Below, piece by piece: positions 970 to 7,001 of a stretch of 7,020 nucleotides of DNA. A model generated the notes under the pieces. It saw only the letters and a program-made list of their open reading frames with translations. It made no database searches and was not told the DNA's origin. The stretch lies in assembly GCA_021799935.1 (NCBI GenBank), contig JAJYZM010000047.1, forward strand, positions 1 to 7,020. The letters are read 5' to 3'. Made by a program: the position numbers and the translations under genes. This DNA comes from a bacterium. GTDB lineage: Bacteria > SZUA-79 > Acidulodesulfobacterales > Acidulodesulfobacteraceae. Position 1 is the stretch's first letter; each line of letters begins with the position of its first letter.

Positions 970-1989
970 TTATATATTCCCCAACTCTATCTGCTTATCT
1001 ATCCAAGGAATAACTTCATCGAGCATTTCTTCCAAGGTAGTCGTCGCTTCAAAGCCAAGCACGTTTTTAGCCTTAGATACGTCGGGAACCCTTTTTTGTA
1101 CGTCATACGGATAAGGCTTATCGGATACGTATTTAAAAGGCTTATCTCCGTTTATTTTTTTCCAAATAATTTCCGCAAGTTCCAAGACGGTAGTCGATCT
1201 GTTTGTTGATATGTTAAAATCTTCGTTGACGGCTTTTGGACTTTCTATGCATAACCTTATGCCTCTTGCAAGGTCTCCGCCGTAGGTATAATGACGTATC
1301 TGATTTCCGTTGCCGAGTATATGAAGCGGGTCTTGTTTTTTTAAGACTTTCTGGACTAAATCGGGAACGACGTGGCTCATGGCAAGCTTTATATTGCCGG
1401 AAAGTATTTCTTTTTCGCTTTTAGCTCTTTTTTCTCCAATGCCTACGCAATTAAAAGGTCTTATTATGGTAAAAGGAAGCTTATACTGCTCGTAGGCTCC
1501 TTTTGCGTAATACTCTGTCGCAAGTTTTTGGAAACCGTAAGTAGAAAAAGGCGGAGGGCATTTTAGCTGTTCGCCTTCCGGAGTTGGATAAACGGAGGTA
1601 TTTTCAAAAACCATTGAAGAAGATACGACGTTTATTTTTTTGAGTTTTTTATTTTTATTAGCCCATATTGCGGCATCGAAAGTTGACGCCATAATTCTTT
1701 CATTTTCGGCTAAAAGGTCGTAGGCAAATTCATGGAAGTAAGAAATGCCGCCTATCATGGCTGCTATTGCCACTACCTGGTCGCAATCAGATAAAGCTTC
1801 TTTTAATAAATCTACGTTTTTAACGTCTCCTTCTATAAAGGTATAGTTTTTATTGCTATCGTAACTCTTATCGAGCTTTCCGTATTTGCTGAAATTATCT
1901 ACCCCTACTACTTCGTGTCCATTATTTAAAAGCTCTTCCGTTAAATAACCTCCGACAAAACCTAACGAGCCCGTTACTAAAATTTTCAT
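970..1989 (-). CDS. NAD-dependent nucleotide-sugar epimerase/dehydratase (extended SDR)
   Basis: The protein has 339 residues, a normal length for the extended short-chain dehydrogenase/reductase family that epimerises or dehydrates UDP-, GDP- or dTDP-sugars in the cytoplasm. Visible signatures: the Rossmann NAD loop TGSLGFVGGYL (residues 6-16, GxxGxxG at 7-13), the acidic residue after strand 2 (VVGVDN, D31), GDV (54-56), the catalytic region VVSSSMVF (121-128) with Y151GFQK155 as YxxxK, and RPFNCVG (177-183). The start at 1989 is chosen because AGGAGGA lies 5 bases before it and the NAD-binding strand begins at once; an in-frame ATG ten codons upstream (2019) lies inside the preceding gene. 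The ATG overlaps the dehydrogenase stop codon (ATGA), so translation is likely coupled. The exact sugar cannot be read from sequence; UDP-glucose 4-epimerase-like or GDP-mannose 3,5-epimerase-like activities are the nearest relatives I can suggest. Confidence 0.88.
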   Translation of the reverse strand: MKILVTGSLGFVGGYLTEELLNNGHEVVGVDNFSKYGKLDKSYDSNKNYTFIEGDVKNVDLLKEALSDCDQVVAIAAMIGGISYFHEFAYDLLAENERIMASTFDAAIWANKNKKLKKINVVSSSMVFENTSVYPTPEGEQLKCPPPFSTYGFQKLATEYYAKGAYEQYKLPFTIIRPFNCVGIGEKRAKSEKEILSGNIKLAMSHVVPDLVQKVLKKQDPLHILGNGNQIRHYTYGGDLARGIRLCIESPKAVNEDFNISTNRSTTVLELAEIIWKKINGDKPFKYVSDKPYPYDVQKRVPDVSKAKNVLGFEATTTLEEMLDEVIPWIDKQIELGNI

Positions 1990-3185
1990 ATAAGTCCTCC
2001 TTTTCCGTAAAAATTCCAAATATCTATTATTGTTTTATTTTTAAAATTAAGGTTTTTGTATTCTTCATGAGGAGTAGCAAGTATTAAAACATCCGAATTA
2101 TCTATTACTTCTTCTATACCTAAGAAATAAGGTTCTTTGATATAGGGGTCAGTGCATAAGACGTCTTTACATTCAAACTGGAGTATCTTTTTAAGTTTAT
2201 AGGAAAGCGAACTTCTTTTGTCGTCGCTTCCGCCTTTAAAGGCCATTCCAAGTATGCCTGCCGTCTTATCGGACAAATTCATCTTTCTTTTAAGGCTCTG
2301 GACTATGTAGTTGGGGAGCCCTTCGTTTATAAGCATGGCAGAATGACCCAGATAGAAGTTGTTTTCTTGAAAAGAGGCAAGCTGCATAGTATCTTTAAAT
2401 AAACATGGTCCTGCGGCAAAACCCGAAGAAGGCAGGTCTTTGGCTCTTGGATAGTTGTGGGTTATTGCTTTATGAATCTTATAATAATCAAGTCCGTGGT
2501 CGTTTGCTATCATAAAGAACTGGTTTGCTACGGCAAATTTTATATACCTCCAGACGTTGGTAAAAAGCTTTGCTAATTCAGCCTCTGTCGGTTCTAGTTC
2601 TATAATATCCGATGTAAGCAGACTGAAAAGCTCTTTTGCTTTTTTAAGTCCGTTATCGGAAAAAGAAGAAATTATCTGAGGGAGTTTTGCAAGCTCAATC
2701 ATTGCGAAACCTTCCGCTATCCTTTCAGGACAAAAAGCAATATCTATATTCTTACCTGCTTCCTTAATCCATTTACCGATATGCTCTGTGGTTCCTGGAT
2801 AAATCGTGCTTCTTAATATTATAAGCTGTCCGTCTTTAAAATACTCAATATAATGGTCGAAGAACTTTTTAATCTCGGAAAGCCTCGGATTTAAAAATTC
2901 ATCTACCGGAGTGCCTATTACTATCACAACTGCTTTACTTTCGGAAATTACTTTCGGGTCTTTTGACAAAACGAGATTGCCGCTTTTTAACGCCGATTTT
3001 AAGATTTCTTCCGCTCCTTCTTCTTTAAACGGCATAATACCTTTTGAAACGAGGTCCATAGACTCTTCGTTTATGTCATATATGCAGACCTTCTTGCCTT
3101 TAGAGGCGAACATAATAGATAAAGGCAGACCGACGTGACCGCAGCCGCCGATAGTGCATAGGTCGTAGGTGAAAATTTGTGGCAT
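1986..3185 (-). CDS. Nucleotide-sugar dehydrogenase (UDP-GlcA / UDP-ManNAcA dehydrogenase family)
   Basis: The 399-residue protein is expected to oxidise the C6 hydroxyl of a UDP-sugar to a uronate in two NAD-dependent steps, supplying an acidic sugar for surface polysaccharide. N-terminal NAD domain: TIGGCGHVGLPL (11-22, GxGxxG at 14-19), YDIN (36-39) with the adenosine-binding acid, VIGTPVDE (89-96), RSTIYPGTTE (125-134) and FCPERIAEG (151-159). The central helix has ELAKLFTNVWRYIKFAVANQ (203-222) with the conserved Lys206 and Asn210. The catalytic loop is GPCLFKD (259-265), with Cys261 as nucleophile. The C-terminal domain has ILGMAFKGGSDDKRSS (311-326) and DPYI (346-349). CPERIAEG resembles the WecC/WbpA/TviB branch, but I would not fix the substrate. 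The ATG at 3185 follows AAGGA by 10 bases. It lies 32 bases after the fusion gene and overlaps the epimerase by 4 bases. Confidence 0.9.
   Translation of the reverse strand: MPQIFTYDLCTIGGCGHVGLPLSIMFASKGKKVCIYDINEESMDLVSKGIMPFKEEGAEEILKSALKSGNLVLSKDPKVISESKAVVIVIGTPVDEFLNPRLSEIKKFFDHYIEYFKDGQLIILRSTIYPGTTEHIGKWIKEAGKNIDIAFCPERIAEGFAMIELAKLPQIISSFSDNGLKKAKELFSLLTSDIIELEPTEAELAKLFTNVWRYIKFAVANQFFMIANDHGLDYYKIHKAITHNYPRAKDLPSSGFAAGPCLFKDTMQLASFQENNFYLGHSAMLINEGLPNYIVQSLKRKMNLSDKTAGILGMAFKGGSDDKRSSLSYKLKKILQFECKDVLCTDPYIKEPYFLGIEEVIDNSDVLILATPHEEYKNLNFKNKTIIDIWNFYGKGGLI
1995..2001 (-). promoter_or_regulatory. Strong ribosome binding site inside the end of the dehydrogenase gene
   Basis: AGGAGGA on the minus strand lies 5 bases before the epimerase ATG at 1989 and within the last codons of the dehydrogenase gene. 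It rules out the in-frame ATG at 2019 as the main start. Confidence 0.8.
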
Positions 3186-3217: not shown

Positions 3218-6130
3218 TTAACATAATTTATTTTTCCTAAATAATTCGTATGCATTCTTAACTGATAGTTCAATGTCTTCAGTTTTTAAATGCTCATAAT
3301 TCGTTATTGCGGTAGCATTTCCATCATAATAATGCCATTCTTGGCTTTTAATTAAATCCTTTGCCAAAGCTTGTTTATAAGCAGGCGTACCAGGGAAAAA
3401 AGTGCATATAGAAAACTGTATTGTATCGGGATTTAATTTCAAAGCAAAATCCATAGTTTCTTTCATAGTTTCCTTAGTTTCTCCTAAAACACCCAACGTA
3501 AAAGTTAAATGAGTCAATATTCCAAGTTCTTTGCATATATTTACTGCATTTTCAACATCTAACAATGAAAGATTTTTACCCATTTTATTTACTATTTCTT
3601 GATTTCCGCTTTCAACTCCAAATTTAACAGAAACAAGTCCCGCTTCTTTCATCTTTTCAAATACTTCTCTCGACGAGGTATCAGCTCTGCACATTGCTCC
3701 CCACGGTAAATTTATTCCAGCTTTTATTATTCCGTCGCAAAGTTTGTAAATTCTTTCATTGCCTATATTAAAAGAATCATCATCGAAGTAATAAGATAAA
3801 AAACCAAATTTTTCCGTAATATATTTAACTTCTGCAATAACATCTTCAATATCTCTAACTCTGTATTTATGGTCGTTATAATAGTTATGTATCCAGTCGC
3901 AAAAATTACAATTATATGGACATCCCCTGCTAGCCATAACCACGCCTTGCGGAAATTTCATTCCTGCAAATAAATCGCTATATGCATAAATATTTAAGCT
4001 TTCTCTTTCAGGCCAAGGTAACATGTTTATATCGACTTTTTGCACATTATTTGAAAATATTTTACTATTTTTTCTATATATTAATCCTTCTATATTTTGT
4101 TTTTCATGTTCTGTTAAAATTCCTTCTTTAAGTTTTAACATTTTCATAAAATTTAACAACGAAAATTCATATTCACCTTTTATTGCATAATCTATAGGAA
4201 AAGCGGATTCCATAATTTCGACTCCATAAGAATTAAATATTGCACCGCCAAAAACTATTTTAGAATCCGGGCTAATGGCTTTAAACTTTCTTGCATATTT
4301 TATATCGTTATGAAAAGAGGCTGTAGAAGTTTCAATAAAAATTATTTCCGGCTGCAATCCTTTTATTCTGCAAACAGTTTCTTCTTCGCTTAATCCCTCC
4401 GCTATAGCATCGACCATATAAGCTTCAAAACCTTCTTTTTTTAAAAGCGAAGACGCATATGCCATAAAAAAGGGAAATGGTAAATAACCAGGTATGTTTT
4501 CAGAGTTTGCGTCAACCGAAAAAGGCCATCTGGAACCAGCTCTAATACCTTGCCGACAATTTTCAACCCATGGAAAATTTACTAAAACTATTCTGTTTTT
4601 TATTATAGAATTTATATCGTTAATATAAAATACATTATCTTCTTCTTGCTTTATTCTTCTAAAAGAAGTTTTAAATATTGACCAAAAAACTTTATCAAAA
4701 TTAAAAGTATTTATGACATTTATCCATTCATTAAGTATTACCGATAAATTATTTTCAAAAATAATATTACTTTCATTACCGTTGATATTATCTTTAGCTC
4801 TTTTAGCTATGTAATTATTAACTTTATCTCCATATGACCCTATTATGCTTTTATTTATATAAGATAATATTTCATCAATAAGCGAAATTTCTAAATTATT
4901 TTTTTCAAAAAAAATTTTAATCGCATTTAATATATAAAACTGTATTTCGTCAATAAGGTCGTTTCTGTTGTTAACCGTTAAAAAATATTTAAAGTCGTTT
5001 AGAGTATTTGAAATAATAGAAACAAAATCTATAAAAATAAGATTATATTTTTTTTTAGCAAAACTATTATTTATTCTATTAATTCCTGAAATAATATTAT
5101 TAGATATTTTTTTTAAAAAGTCATTCATTTCTAAATAGTTAGTTGCAGGTTCAGCCCAATTCCATTGAGTTTTTAAAATTGAAATAAAAGAGTCTGATCT
5201 AGTATGAAATGCTAAAGCGTTTTCTTCAAAAAATAAATTATAGCCATTTTTTTTGAGTCTTAAACAAATATCCATATCTTCATAGTTAGTAAAATATTTA
5301 GGATTATATCCGCCAACCGCTTTTAACGCCTCGACTCTAAAAACATTATTATTGCCACTAAAAACTTCACTGCTATATTTAGAAAGAAATTTCTCCTTAG
5401 AGGAATTTTGATTCATATATATTTGTCGCCATCTATCTATAGTTCTTTGTGAAAATAATTCAATAATCTTTCCTCCTGCTCCGGCTATATAATCATTTTT
5501 CATTACGTTCATTAATCGTTCAAGCCAATATTTATCTGCAATATCATCTGTGTCGATAGTTGCAATAAAATCCCCTTTTGCATTATACAATGCCGTATTT
5601 CTGCTTGCAGCCAATCCTTTTCTTATTCCTCCATGGTCTATTATTTTAATAAAATTGTAAACTGAAGCATAATATTCAGCTATTTCCCTTGACTTATCGA
5701 TGCTGCCGTCATCTATTATTAAAAGCTCATAAACAGGATAAGACAAACTAAGAATAGACTCTATAGCATTTTTAATATATTTTTCCGTATTAAAACAATT
5801 TATATATACCGTAACTTTTTTTATGTCAGCATTTGATAGCAAAATATTATATAAATTTTCATCTATATCTTTCGCAATATTACAAGCAGACACAGTTAAT
5901 TTATTTTTTAAATAAAAATCTATAATTTTATATAAATTTTCTTTTTTTTTATTTAAATTGCATTTTGAAAATACAAAATTATACCACCACTCAGCTTCAT
6001 GAAATAATCCATGTTTTTCTAATTCTTCGGCATAATCCCATAAGATATCATAACACTGAGGATTATTTATAATATTATTTTCTATTTCAGATAATTTTTT
6101 ATCTTGTGCTGGTAAATGTTCGTATAACAT
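3218..6130 (-). CDS. Fusion protein: family 2 glycosyltransferase + B12-binding radical SAM enzyme
   Basis: The protein has 970 residues and no signal peptide or obvious membrane segment. Residues 1-100 are helical with one TPR-like hairpin (about 27-60). Residues 105-310 form a GT-A glycosyltransferase domain: VTVYINCFNTEKYI, LLIIDDGSID (137-146), metal-binding TIDTDD (191-196), SGNNNVFR (258-265) and the acceptor-side YEDMDICLRLKKNGY (283-297). Residues 320-510 are Asn/Ile/Lys-rich, helical and unassigned. Residues 513-660 match the cobalamin-binding domain of class B radical SAM enzymes (PFPFFMAYASSLLKKEGFEA, IIFIETSTASFHNDI, IVFGGAIF), without the DxHxxG lower-ligand motif, as is usual for that class. 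Residues 727-915 are the radical SAM barrel: CPYNCNFC (C737, C741, C744) for the 4Fe-4S cluster and FGVESGNQEIVNKMGK. Class B enzymes often methylate unactivated carbons. The product probably glycosylates and modifies a glycan or lipid. The ATG has a weak ribosome binding site. Confidence 0.85.
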   Translation of the reverse strand: MLYEHLPAQDKKLSEIENNIINNPQCYDILWDYAEELEKHGLFHEAEWWYNFVFSKCNLNKKKENLYKIIDFYLKNKLTVSACNIAKDIDENLYNILLSNADIKKVTVYINCFNTEKYIKNAIESILSLSYPVYELLIIDDGSIDKSREIAEYYASVYNFIKIIDHGGIRKGLAASRNTALYNAKGDFIATIDTDDIADKYWLERLMNVMKNDYIAGAGGKIIELFSQRTIDRWRQIYMNQNSSKEKFLSKYSSEVFSGNNNVFRVEALKAVGGYNPKYFTNYEDMDICLRLKKNGYNLFFEENALAFHTRSDSFISILKTQWNWAEPATNYLEMNDFLKKISNNIISGINRINNSFAKKKYNLIFIDFVSIISNTLNDFKYFLTVNNRNDLIDEIQFYILNAIKIFFEKNNLEISLIDEILSYINKSIIGSYGDKVNNYIAKRAKDNINGNESNIIFENNLSVILNEWINVINTFNFDKVFWSIFKTSFRRIKQEEDNVFYINDINSIIKNRIVLVNFPWVENCRQGIRAGSRWPFSVDANSENIPGYLPFPFFMAYASSLLKKEGFEAYMVDAIAEGLSEEETVCRIKGLQPEIIFIETSTASFHNDIKYARKFKAISPDSKIVFGGAIFNSYGVEIMESAFPIDYAIKGEYEFSLLNFMKMLKLKEGILTEHEKQNIEGLIYRKNSKIFSNNVQKVDINMLPWPERESLNIYAYSDLFAGMKFPQGVVMASRGCPYNCNFCDWIHNYYNDHKYRVRDIEDVIAEVKYITEKFGFLSYYFDDDSFNIGNERIYKLCDGIIKAGINLPWGAMCRADTSSREVFEKMKEAGLVSVKFGVESGNQEIVNKMGKNLSLLDVENAVNICKELGILTHLTFTLGVLGETKETMKETMDFALKLNPDTIQFSICTFFPGTPAYKQALAKDLIKSQEWHYYDGNATAITNYEHLKTEDIELSVKNAYELFRKNKLC

Positions 6131-6225
6131 AATTAATTAAGAATCTCGATTTTATTTAAAATTCACTATAAATAGCATTACATTTACGGCATAACAATTC
6201 TATACCTTAATCCACCGTTATAAAC

Positions 6226-6256
6226 TTGAAAGCCACCCTTAAAGTTATTGTAAAAT
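6226..6256 (+). promoter_or_regulatory. Weak candidate promoter of the transposase remnant
   Basis: TTGAAA (6226-6231) could serve as -35 and TAAAAT (6251-6256) as -10, but the 19-base spacing is longer than ideal. A start near 6263 would fall in the loop of the inverted repeat at 6231-6298, so this transcript would lack the 5' arm and leave the ribosome binding site free. Confidence 0.3.
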
Positions 6257-6298
6257 ATAAGTGTCAGCAAAATATAAACAATAACCCAAAAGGTGGCT
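6231..6298 (+). promoter_or_regulatory. Inverted repeat masking the transposase ribosome binding site
   Basis: AGCCACC (6231-6237) pairs with GGTGGCT (6292-6298), and GTTATTG (6244-6250) with CAATAAC (6279-6285). In between are two more A-T pairs and a few mismatches, giving 16 of 20 pairs around a 28-base loop. The 3' arm includes AGGTGG (6291-6296), the ribosome binding site 6 bases before the transposase ATG. Read-through RNA from outside the element would fold and hide this site, a known way that insertion sequences limit transposase from external transcription. It may also be, or overlap, the left end of the element. Confidence 0.6.
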
Positions 6299-6302
6299 TA
6301 TA

Positions 6303-7001
6303 ATGAAAATTTTATCACTAAAATTAAAAATGGGCAACGAAAAAATTACATCATTCGGCGATATATTCTTCTGCAGAATTGAAAAAGCATGCCTTTTTCA
6401 GCAGAAGAATATGATATTATTAGCCGATTTTATTAAAAAATTAGGCATTGAAGAAAGATTAGATTCTTATCTTCCTAAAGCCGGAAGCAACAGAGGTTAT
6501 AAACCTTCTCAAAAAATATTGTCATTCCTATCTTCCGTTATGTTGTCCGGCGAAGGCAGATACGTTAATATAGACCGTCTAAGAAAAGACGATACTATTA
6601 AAACGATATGGGGATTAAATAATATGCCTCATAGTACTAAAATCGGCGAATGGTTTTTAAAGAACGGAGAAAGTAAAGGAGACTTTGCGACTGGAAAGAC
6701 TAAAAAAATAATAGACGATATATCTTTAGATTTAGTAGTAGAAGCATTAAAAGAAAAAAATATAAAAGAAGCAGTATTCGATGCGGATGTTTCCCTGATA
6801 GAAGCCAACAAAAAGGAATCCAAAAAAACATACAAAGGCTTCAGGGGCATGGGTTCGCTATTAGGCTTCGTAAACGGCTACTGCTTATATTCCGATTTTA
6901 GAAATTATCGTCACCGAATGTATAATACTAAAAACACCGAATTAAAATTCCTGTTTTCACCGACGAAAAAGTCAGGTCGTTACTTTCTGCTAAATTACTA
7001 A
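6303..7001 (+). pseudogene. IS1380-family transposase, 5' part only
   Basis: The reading frame has 232 codons, while IS1380-family transposases usually exceed 400 residues. Family-like features: the N-terminal helical region (LLADFIKKLGIEERLD, about 39-54), the helix with LSGEG (81-85) and DRLRKDD (91-97), LNNMPHSTKIGEWF (105-118) resembling the family's target-selection segment, and VFDADVSLIEANKKES (158-173) with the first acidic catalytic residue (D160 or D162), followed by YKGFRGMGSLLGFVNG (177-192). Similarity ends after YSDFRN (about residue 201, base 6905). The remaining 31 residues do not look like the family, and the frame stops at 7001. The second and third catalytic acids are absent. 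The nearby +2 reading gives LSSPN, possibly a frameshifted continuation of the usual R-x-GN-x-SP stretch. The ATG follows AGGTGG by 6 bases. It is divergent from the fusion gene. Confidence 0.75.

Follow-up and report, generated by a model that had tools for sequence, protein, structure and literature searches.

The 7,020-nucleotide stretch analyzed here (positions 1–7,020 of contig JAJYZM010000047.1, assembly GCA_021799935.1, from a member of the Acidulodesulfobacteraceae; hereafter the window) encodes a 970-residue protein in which a family 2 glycosyltransferase (GT2) is fused to a presumably cobalamin-dependent (class B) radical S-adenosylmethionine (rSAM) enzyme. We found that this architecture recurs, that its catalytic motifs are conserved, that the rSAM half is kin to HpnJ, and that rSAM enzymes of this family have been joined to glycosyltransferases repeatedly. 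By analogy, the reading that we favor, with a probability of roughly 0.4, is that of a bifunctional surface-glycan enzyme whose GT2 half would add a sugar and whose rSAM half would rebuild the carbon frame, making it a one-chain counterpart of HpnI and HpnJ. There is good support for a role of the two halves in a single glycan pathway.

Domain structure and catalytic motifs of the fusion

An earlier, sequence-only reading of the window had proposed that one uninterrupted frame carries both enzymes, next to genes for a nucleotide-sugar dehydrogenase and an epimerase. This description proved accurate. The open reading frame (ORF; Table 1) starts with ATG, has no internal stops and contains three Pfam domains, each above its cut-off: Glycos_transf_2 (PF00535) at residues 107–272 (107.7 bits, E = 8e-31), B12-binding (PF02310) at residues 556–655 (40.1 bits, cut-off 32.1) and Radical_SAM (PF04055) at residues 734–896 (71.5 bits, cut-off 29.5, E = 1.2e-19), the last of which places it in the radical SAM superfamily. 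The motifs DDGS (140–143), DTDD (193–196), YEDMD (283–287) and CPYNCNFC (737–744) are all intact, exactly at the positions given earlier; the cobalamin domain, put at about 513–660, spans residues 512–700 in the structural model; and family profiles confirmed the identity of the two adjoining genes.

The AlphaFold model of the whole chain has a predicted template modeling score (pTM) of 0.87 and a mean predicted local distance difference test score (pLDDT) of 84.5. It places predicted helices at residues 8–101, and a profile of the fusions matches solved tetratricopeptide repeat (TPR) proteins at positions 22–116; no TPR was called by Pfam in the window protein. The next domain is assigned to GT2 by its matches to GT-A folds, the metal motif D193-x-D195 and the catalytic motif E284-D285. 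A B12-binding Rossmann domain N-terminal to the rSAM domain, together with fold matches to OxsB, TsrM and CysS, marks the C-terminal half as a presumptive class B enzyme. Between the two halves lies a helical linker, the profile of which matched, among the ORFs scanned, fused proteins only. Seven residues (D141, D195, E284, D285, C737, C741 and C744) are invariant in all 20 aligned GT2-first fusions. Both halves are apparently active enzymes of their respective types.

According to section 5 of PMC13331322, the loop following strand 3 of the cobalamin domain places a residue beneath the cobalt in OxsB, TsrM and TokK. The corresponding loop of the window protein reads ETSTAS (residues 600–605), with E600 invariant in the 20 aligned fusions, whereas the same loop reads [HYF]TST in five of five HpnJ sequences. 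By analogy, our guess is that a glutamate might lie near the cobalt in the window protein.

The fusion is recurrent but patchily distributed

Forty-three of 97 homologs carry GT2 and this rSAM in one chain, 34 with GT2 first and nine in the reverse order. The nearest, P0001, has the same architecture and is 42% identical to the window protein across 99% of the length. In seven of the nine rSAM-first proteins, GT2 is 30–40% identical to that of the window; the GT2 domains of P0047 and P0067 (rSAM-first) and P0071 (GT2-first) are more distant from it. Some larger relatives carry an additional GT4, FkbM or class I methyltransferase domain. The architecture is found again in metagenomic sequences, and for some relatives (P0002, P0005 and P0021, for instance) the automatically assigned names already cover the two halves.

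The sequence-only reading knew of no characterized enzyme joining the two activities and suspected an undescribed glycan-tailoring step. In the open-licence literature we likewise found neither a characterized example nor a description of the GT2–B12-rSAM architecture; that much of the claim stands, but other genomes have the architecture too. Already known are fusions of glycosyltransferases to sugar-tailoring enzymes, as well as the HpnI and HpnJ steps. For example, WsaE of Geobacillus stearothermophilus (PMC2943079) and ORF6 of Klebsiella O7 (PMC11231755) each unite, within a single polypeptide of a surface-glycan pathway, glycosyltransferase modules with an enzyme that tailors sugars, and by its domain content the window fusion also appears to hold glycosyltransferase and sugar-tailoring-type domains in a single chain. 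They differ in that their tailoring enzyme is a methyltransferase (plus a kinase in O7) that caps the chain, and radical SAM and B12 domains are absent from the relevant passages of the two papers.

None of 29 other genomes examined from the window's phylum, all from one family, has the fusion, and a search of the window's own genome turned up no second copy. In a wider survey of 386 genomes, mostly from other families and with at most two candidates scored per genome, 33 (the window's own included) match at E ≤ 1e-60. Among the candidates scored, one further full-length fusion of the same GT2 subfamily is in G263; looser GT2 fusions occur in G276 (GT2-first) and G216 (rSAM-first), G298 and G161 encode the rSAM followed by a GT4 domain, and most other matching genomes have stand-alone rSAMs of roughly 470–620 residues. 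Reference genomes yielded no fusion in the 80 loci examined (best 90 ORFs) of at least 534 stretches encoding relatives. Annotated phage records gave no match at E ≤ 1e-20, and of the 33 plasmid records matching at E ≤ 1e-30 none covers 80% of the fusion protein. The patchy spread among genomes suggests horizontal transfer.

The radical SAM half is related to HpnJ

The rSAM half is a member of a family that is widespread, occurs mostly as stand-alone proteins and is marked by an A-G-S-R-W motif (AGSRW). For the window protein and ten relatives alike (11 of 11), the closest curated NCBIfam family is HpnJ (TIGR03471), with BchE (TIGR02026) as the second-best model in ten of the eleven. The window rSAM scores 218.1 bits against HpnJ (cut-off 577.6), 164.9 against BchE (cut-off 481.35) and 92.2 against AprD4 (NF033070, cut-off 500). 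Having failed each curated cut-off, it was rejected as a true HpnJ, BchE or AprD4, and the naming of P0001 as a BchE-type cyclase by the Joint Genome Institute looks like over-annotation. The kinship with HpnJ extends to motifs: A-[GS]-[SA]-R-[WYF] is present in five of five true HpnJ proteins as against one of 169 other B12-rSAM relatives, and a CxWPQ motif is common to HpnJ and most rSAM-family members. We also built a tree of rSAM domains (98 rows, none of them GenK, GenD1 or Fom3) by a quick method with Shimodaira–Hasegawa-like approximate likelihood ratio (SH-aLRT) support. In it, the five HpnJ rows form their own clade (100) and the rSAM family another (95 at the base), the window protein lying outside the HpnJ clade.

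According to passages of PMC12583986, a sugar is attached to bacteriohopanetetrol by HpnI, is then deacetylated by HpnK and is finally turned into the cyclitol ether by HpnJ; the HpnJ step is described as a ring contraction in a part of PMC8590665. In these accounts, a glycosyltransferase and an rSAM act in turn on one glycoside, and the window chain appears to hold analogs of both end activities. The difference is that HpnI, HpnK and HpnJ are separate proteins acting on a hopanoid, whereas the window fusion stands in a sugar-nucleotide neighborhood. BchE, a cobalamin-dependent oxidative cyclase and non-methylase in the account of PMC13142503, differs in its porphyrin substrate, and AprD4, a radical SAM diol dehydratase, in having no glycosyltransferase.

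Stand-alone members also occur on viral contigs: at least 14 of 80 IMG/VR loci (L203, L205, L207–L211, L213–L217, L219 and L232) encode an AGSRW rSAM, ten with RAGSRW and four with NAGSRW. On one of these, the 210-kb contig of L217, an RmlD-like gene and a glycosyltransferase precede the rSAM, and a Volactin gene is nearby. Going by Pfam names, an intein with an HNH domain interrupts the rSAM in P0074 (confirmed), P0076 and P0077; in P0074 and P0077 the second of the [4Fe-4S] motif cysteines comes directly after the insert. Among P0049–P0065 and P0039–P0044, the rSAM has as its fusion partner either another radical SAM or B12-rSAM domain or a C-terminal region of some 290 residues that matches no Pfam family (P0049) and is named Omnitrophota in some records.

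The two activities are linked

In the tree, the window protein and P0001 are sisters (100), and both fall within a clade made up of 16 rows of GT2-first fusions (99). Six rSAM-first fusions (P0028, P0029, P0032, P0034, P0037 and P0038) make up a clade of their own (100). The fusion states require at least eight changes over 66 labeled rows, a rough figure with 38 forks open; therefore, glycosyltransferases have joined or left this rSAM repeatedly.

The sequence profile of the GT2 half sets it apart as a subfamily of its own. Scores of 261–366 bits against this profile are reached by fusions in either order and by three stand-alone genes, and all other matches, the GT2 domains of L168, P0067, L172 and P0071 among them, score 130 or less. 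In three loci (L145, L151 and L169) a stand-alone subfamily GT2 is encoded two genes from a stand-alone rSAM, with one GT4 gene between. At E ≤ 1e-45 the subfamily is present in eight of 372 genomes, and all eight also encode the rSAM. Since both domain orders occur and GT2 lies two genes from rSAM in three loci, the link between the halves looks functional. The sequence-only reading had taken the fusion to mean that sugar transfer and radical chemistry act on the same acceptor; an apparent functional link is supported, and the interpretation as a whole is partly supported. The two activities are linked, but not inseparable.

The comparison of gene neighborhoods covered up to three genes on each side in 26 loci of the rSAM family (131 proteins) and 25 loci of other B12-rSAMs (135 proteins), with genes called by a simple longest-ORF rule. 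Left out were one 869-residue neighbor, neighbors of more than 900 residues, the motif-less loci L159, L167, L170 and L171, AGSRW rSAM relatives in the family set and all other rSAM relatives in the control set. Enrichment was found for group 1 glycosyltransferases (15/131 versus 6/135) and for PF13524 proteins (14/131 versus 3/135). In the cultured bacterium Psychromonas sp. SA13A, two stand-alone members are clustered with GT2, UDP-galactopyranose mutase, GDP-mannose dehydratase, an RmlD-type protein and two more glycosyltransferases; on plasmid p5 of Azospirillum brasilense Sp7, an AGSRW member comes after two genes of the epimerase family, with a glycosyltransferase gene facing it. Gene context thus points to a glycan, not to which reaction takes place on it, and these cultured hosts make the glycan idea testable.

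On a plasmid of Eleftheria terrae (L284, NZ_CP106952.1), a more distant rSAM relative without AGSRW is preceded by a PIG-L deacetylase (three genes before), an oxidoreductase and a WecB-type glycosyltransferase and followed by a second B12-rSAM, an epimerase and GT4 genes, an order reminiscent of the HpnI, HpnK and HpnJ steps. For Brachyspira hyodysenteriae, PMC4267127 reports a plasmid block containing an rSAM, a glycosyltransferase and two epimerase genes. Lawsonia plasmids NC_008012.1, NC_020128.1 and NZ_CP107057.1 encode a protein 30% identical to a stand-alone member.

Proposed function and alternatives

In the mechanism that we propose, the GT2 half would take a sugar from a nucleotide sugar, plausibly the product of the adjacent dehydrogenase and epimerase, and transfer it to a glycan under construction, which is probably bound to a carrier. 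The C-terminal half, presumably cobalamin-dependent and nearest to HpnJ, would then use a 5′-deoxyadenosyl radical to abstract a hydrogen atom from the glycan and rebuild the carbon frame of the sugar, by ring contraction or another change of ring or skeleton that goes beyond mere methylation. As stated in passages of PMC13142503, the few known cobalamin-dependent non-methylases, including HpnJ and BchE, all carry out ring formation or rearrangement, and the role of cobalamin in these enzymes is termed speculative. Because all of them form or rearrange rings, we rank remodeling above C-methylation, and C-methylation above dehydration or epimerization. The sequence-only reading had offered methylation, epimerization or C–C bond formation; of such options, the sequence points first to HpnJ-type ring remodeling, with methylation as a possible second.

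A number of observations weigh against this proposal. No member tested attains the HpnJ cut-off, HpnJ stands beside and not within the rSAM family on the tree, and the CxWPQ motif is without its WPQ in both the window protein and P0001. AprD4 (6fd2), which catalyzes dehydration, is the closest fold for the rSAM half, in a ranking that covers solved structures only, with none for HpnJ or BchE among the matches listed. On the glycosyltransferase side, HpnI is absent from the best 25 of 51 NCBIfam matches of the window protein, as it is for P0018 and P0028 at E ≤ 1e-20; the fused GT2 was accordingly rejected as an HpnI homolog, and the HpnI/HpnJ pair is taken as an analog only. Six of nine stand-alone subfamily GT2 genes (219–291 bits; in G215, G070, G347, G132, G294 and G207, one at a contig end) have no AGSRW rSAM in the stretch examined around the gene. 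The neighborhood enrichment over other B12-rSAMs is modest: group 1 glycosyltransferases are enriched, but GT2 (6/131 versus 7/135) and epimerases (9/131 versus 7/135) are not. Finally, an HpnK-like deacetylase is not among the 25 commonest of the 112 families matched by the 131 neighbors.

The most serious alternative, which we consider doubtful, is that the rSAM half is a class B C-methyltransferase acting on an unactivated carbon of the added sugar or of the acceptor, which would produce a branched or C-methylated residue. Among the matches listed, from which GenK, GenD1 and Fom3 models are missing and so fall outside the comparison, the non-methylases HpnJ (218 bits) and BchE (165) outscore every methylase model. 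The AGSRW-type insert, common with HpnJ, likewise argues against methylation. More unlikely still is that the rSAM removes or inverts a group in the manner of AprD4, by radical dehydration of a diol or by epimerization, with the neighboring epimerase-family gene as a possible reductase partner. The closest fold agrees with this idea within the limits of the solved structures, but the AprD4 family model gives only 92 bits compared with 218 for HpnJ, and epimerase-family neighbors are no commoner than in the control set.

It is also conceivable, though very unlikely, that the halves are joined merely for co-expression or membrane location and have different substrates, that of the rSAM being a protein, a lipid carrier or a nucleotide sugar prior to transfer. 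Most rSAM-family members in genomes do stand alone, several subfamily GT2 genes stand away from the rSAM, and the TPR-like N-terminus could hold a protein partner; against this stand the two domain orders and the fact that glycosyltransferases have been joined to the rSAM several times separately. That the fusion arose through wrong assembly or binning is barely credible: it is missing from 29 other genomes of the phylum and contig C25 (6331 bases) stops within its first codons, but the window continues beyond that point, contigs C60 and C84 of the genome carry copies of the right flank (6202–6360) at 90–91% identity, which supports the binning, and a false join of two genes, the error that the earlier reading had allowed for, is ruled out by the 43 fused homologs, P0001 and the tree clade.

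A bolder form of the remodeling proposal, which we hold to be unlikely, is that a hexose or hexuronic acid is first added to a surface glycan by the fusion and then undergoes ring contraction by the same polypeptide, leaving carbocyclic (cyclitol-type) residues in a bacterial polysaccharide. If so, the fusion would be the prototype of a large AGSRW rSAM family (stand-alone, fused and on viral contigs) that makes rare sugar skeletons inside glycans, not on nucleotide sugars. Pathways to bicyclic sugars would then be a place to look for such an enzyme, one example being bradyrhizose, the genes for which were called unknown in 2016 (in a passage of PMC4743980). More generally, an rSAM family repeatedly joined to glycosyltransferases comes with a built-in substrate clue, which most uncharacterized radical enzymes lack, and it suggests that unusual surface sugars may come from radical chemistry carried out on glycans already assembled.

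Surroundings of the fusion in the window

Table 1. Features of the 7,020-nucleotide window, beginning with the fusion and its parts
Feature	Coordinates	Strand	Basis
970-residue fusion protein	3218..6130	minus	single open frame, full-length homologs, AlphaFold model
Residues 1–101, helical TPR-like N-terminal region	5828..6130	minus	six model helices and profile match
Residues 104–330, GT2 (GT-A) glycosyltransferase domain	5141..5821	minus	PF00535, structural matches to GT2 enzymes, invariant residues
Residues 331–511, all-helical linker of about 180 residues between the two enzymes	4598..5140	minus	model
Residues 512–700, B12-binding (Rossmann) domain	4031..4597	minus	PF02310; boundary from model
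RAGSRW motif, residues 530–535	4526..4543	minus	A-[GS]-[SA]-R-[WYF] form common with HpnJ
Residues 728–967, radical SAM domain and C-terminal helix	3230..3949	minus	PF04055, model, fold matches
CPYNCNFC, residues 737–744, [4Fe-4S] cysteine motif (CX3CX2C)	3899..3922	minus	cysteines invariant
Nucleotide-sugar dehydrogenase (UDP-glucose/GDP-mannose dehydrogenase family)	1986..3185	minus	Pfam; NCBIfam TIGR03026, 270 bits, above cut-off
NAD-dependent epimerase/dehydratase family protein	970..2019	minus	Pfam PF01370
Methyltransf_24 fragment, 93 residues	372..653	minus	PF13578, profile positions 1–33 of 105
IS1380-like transposase ORF, 232 residues	6303..7001	plus	63 bits, cut-off 180

The dehydrogenase, the epimerase and the Methyltransf_24 fragment all lie downstream of the fusion on the same strand. 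From the sequence, the true start of the epimerase gene is probably the ATG near 1989, and the Methyltransf_24 fragment is probably a broken gene. Methyltransf_24 genes are seen repeatedly in the vicinity of rSAM-family members: besides the fragment in the window, one is found directly after the fusion of G263 (L143, 6390–7241) and another directly after a viral rSAM (L207, 4326–4997).
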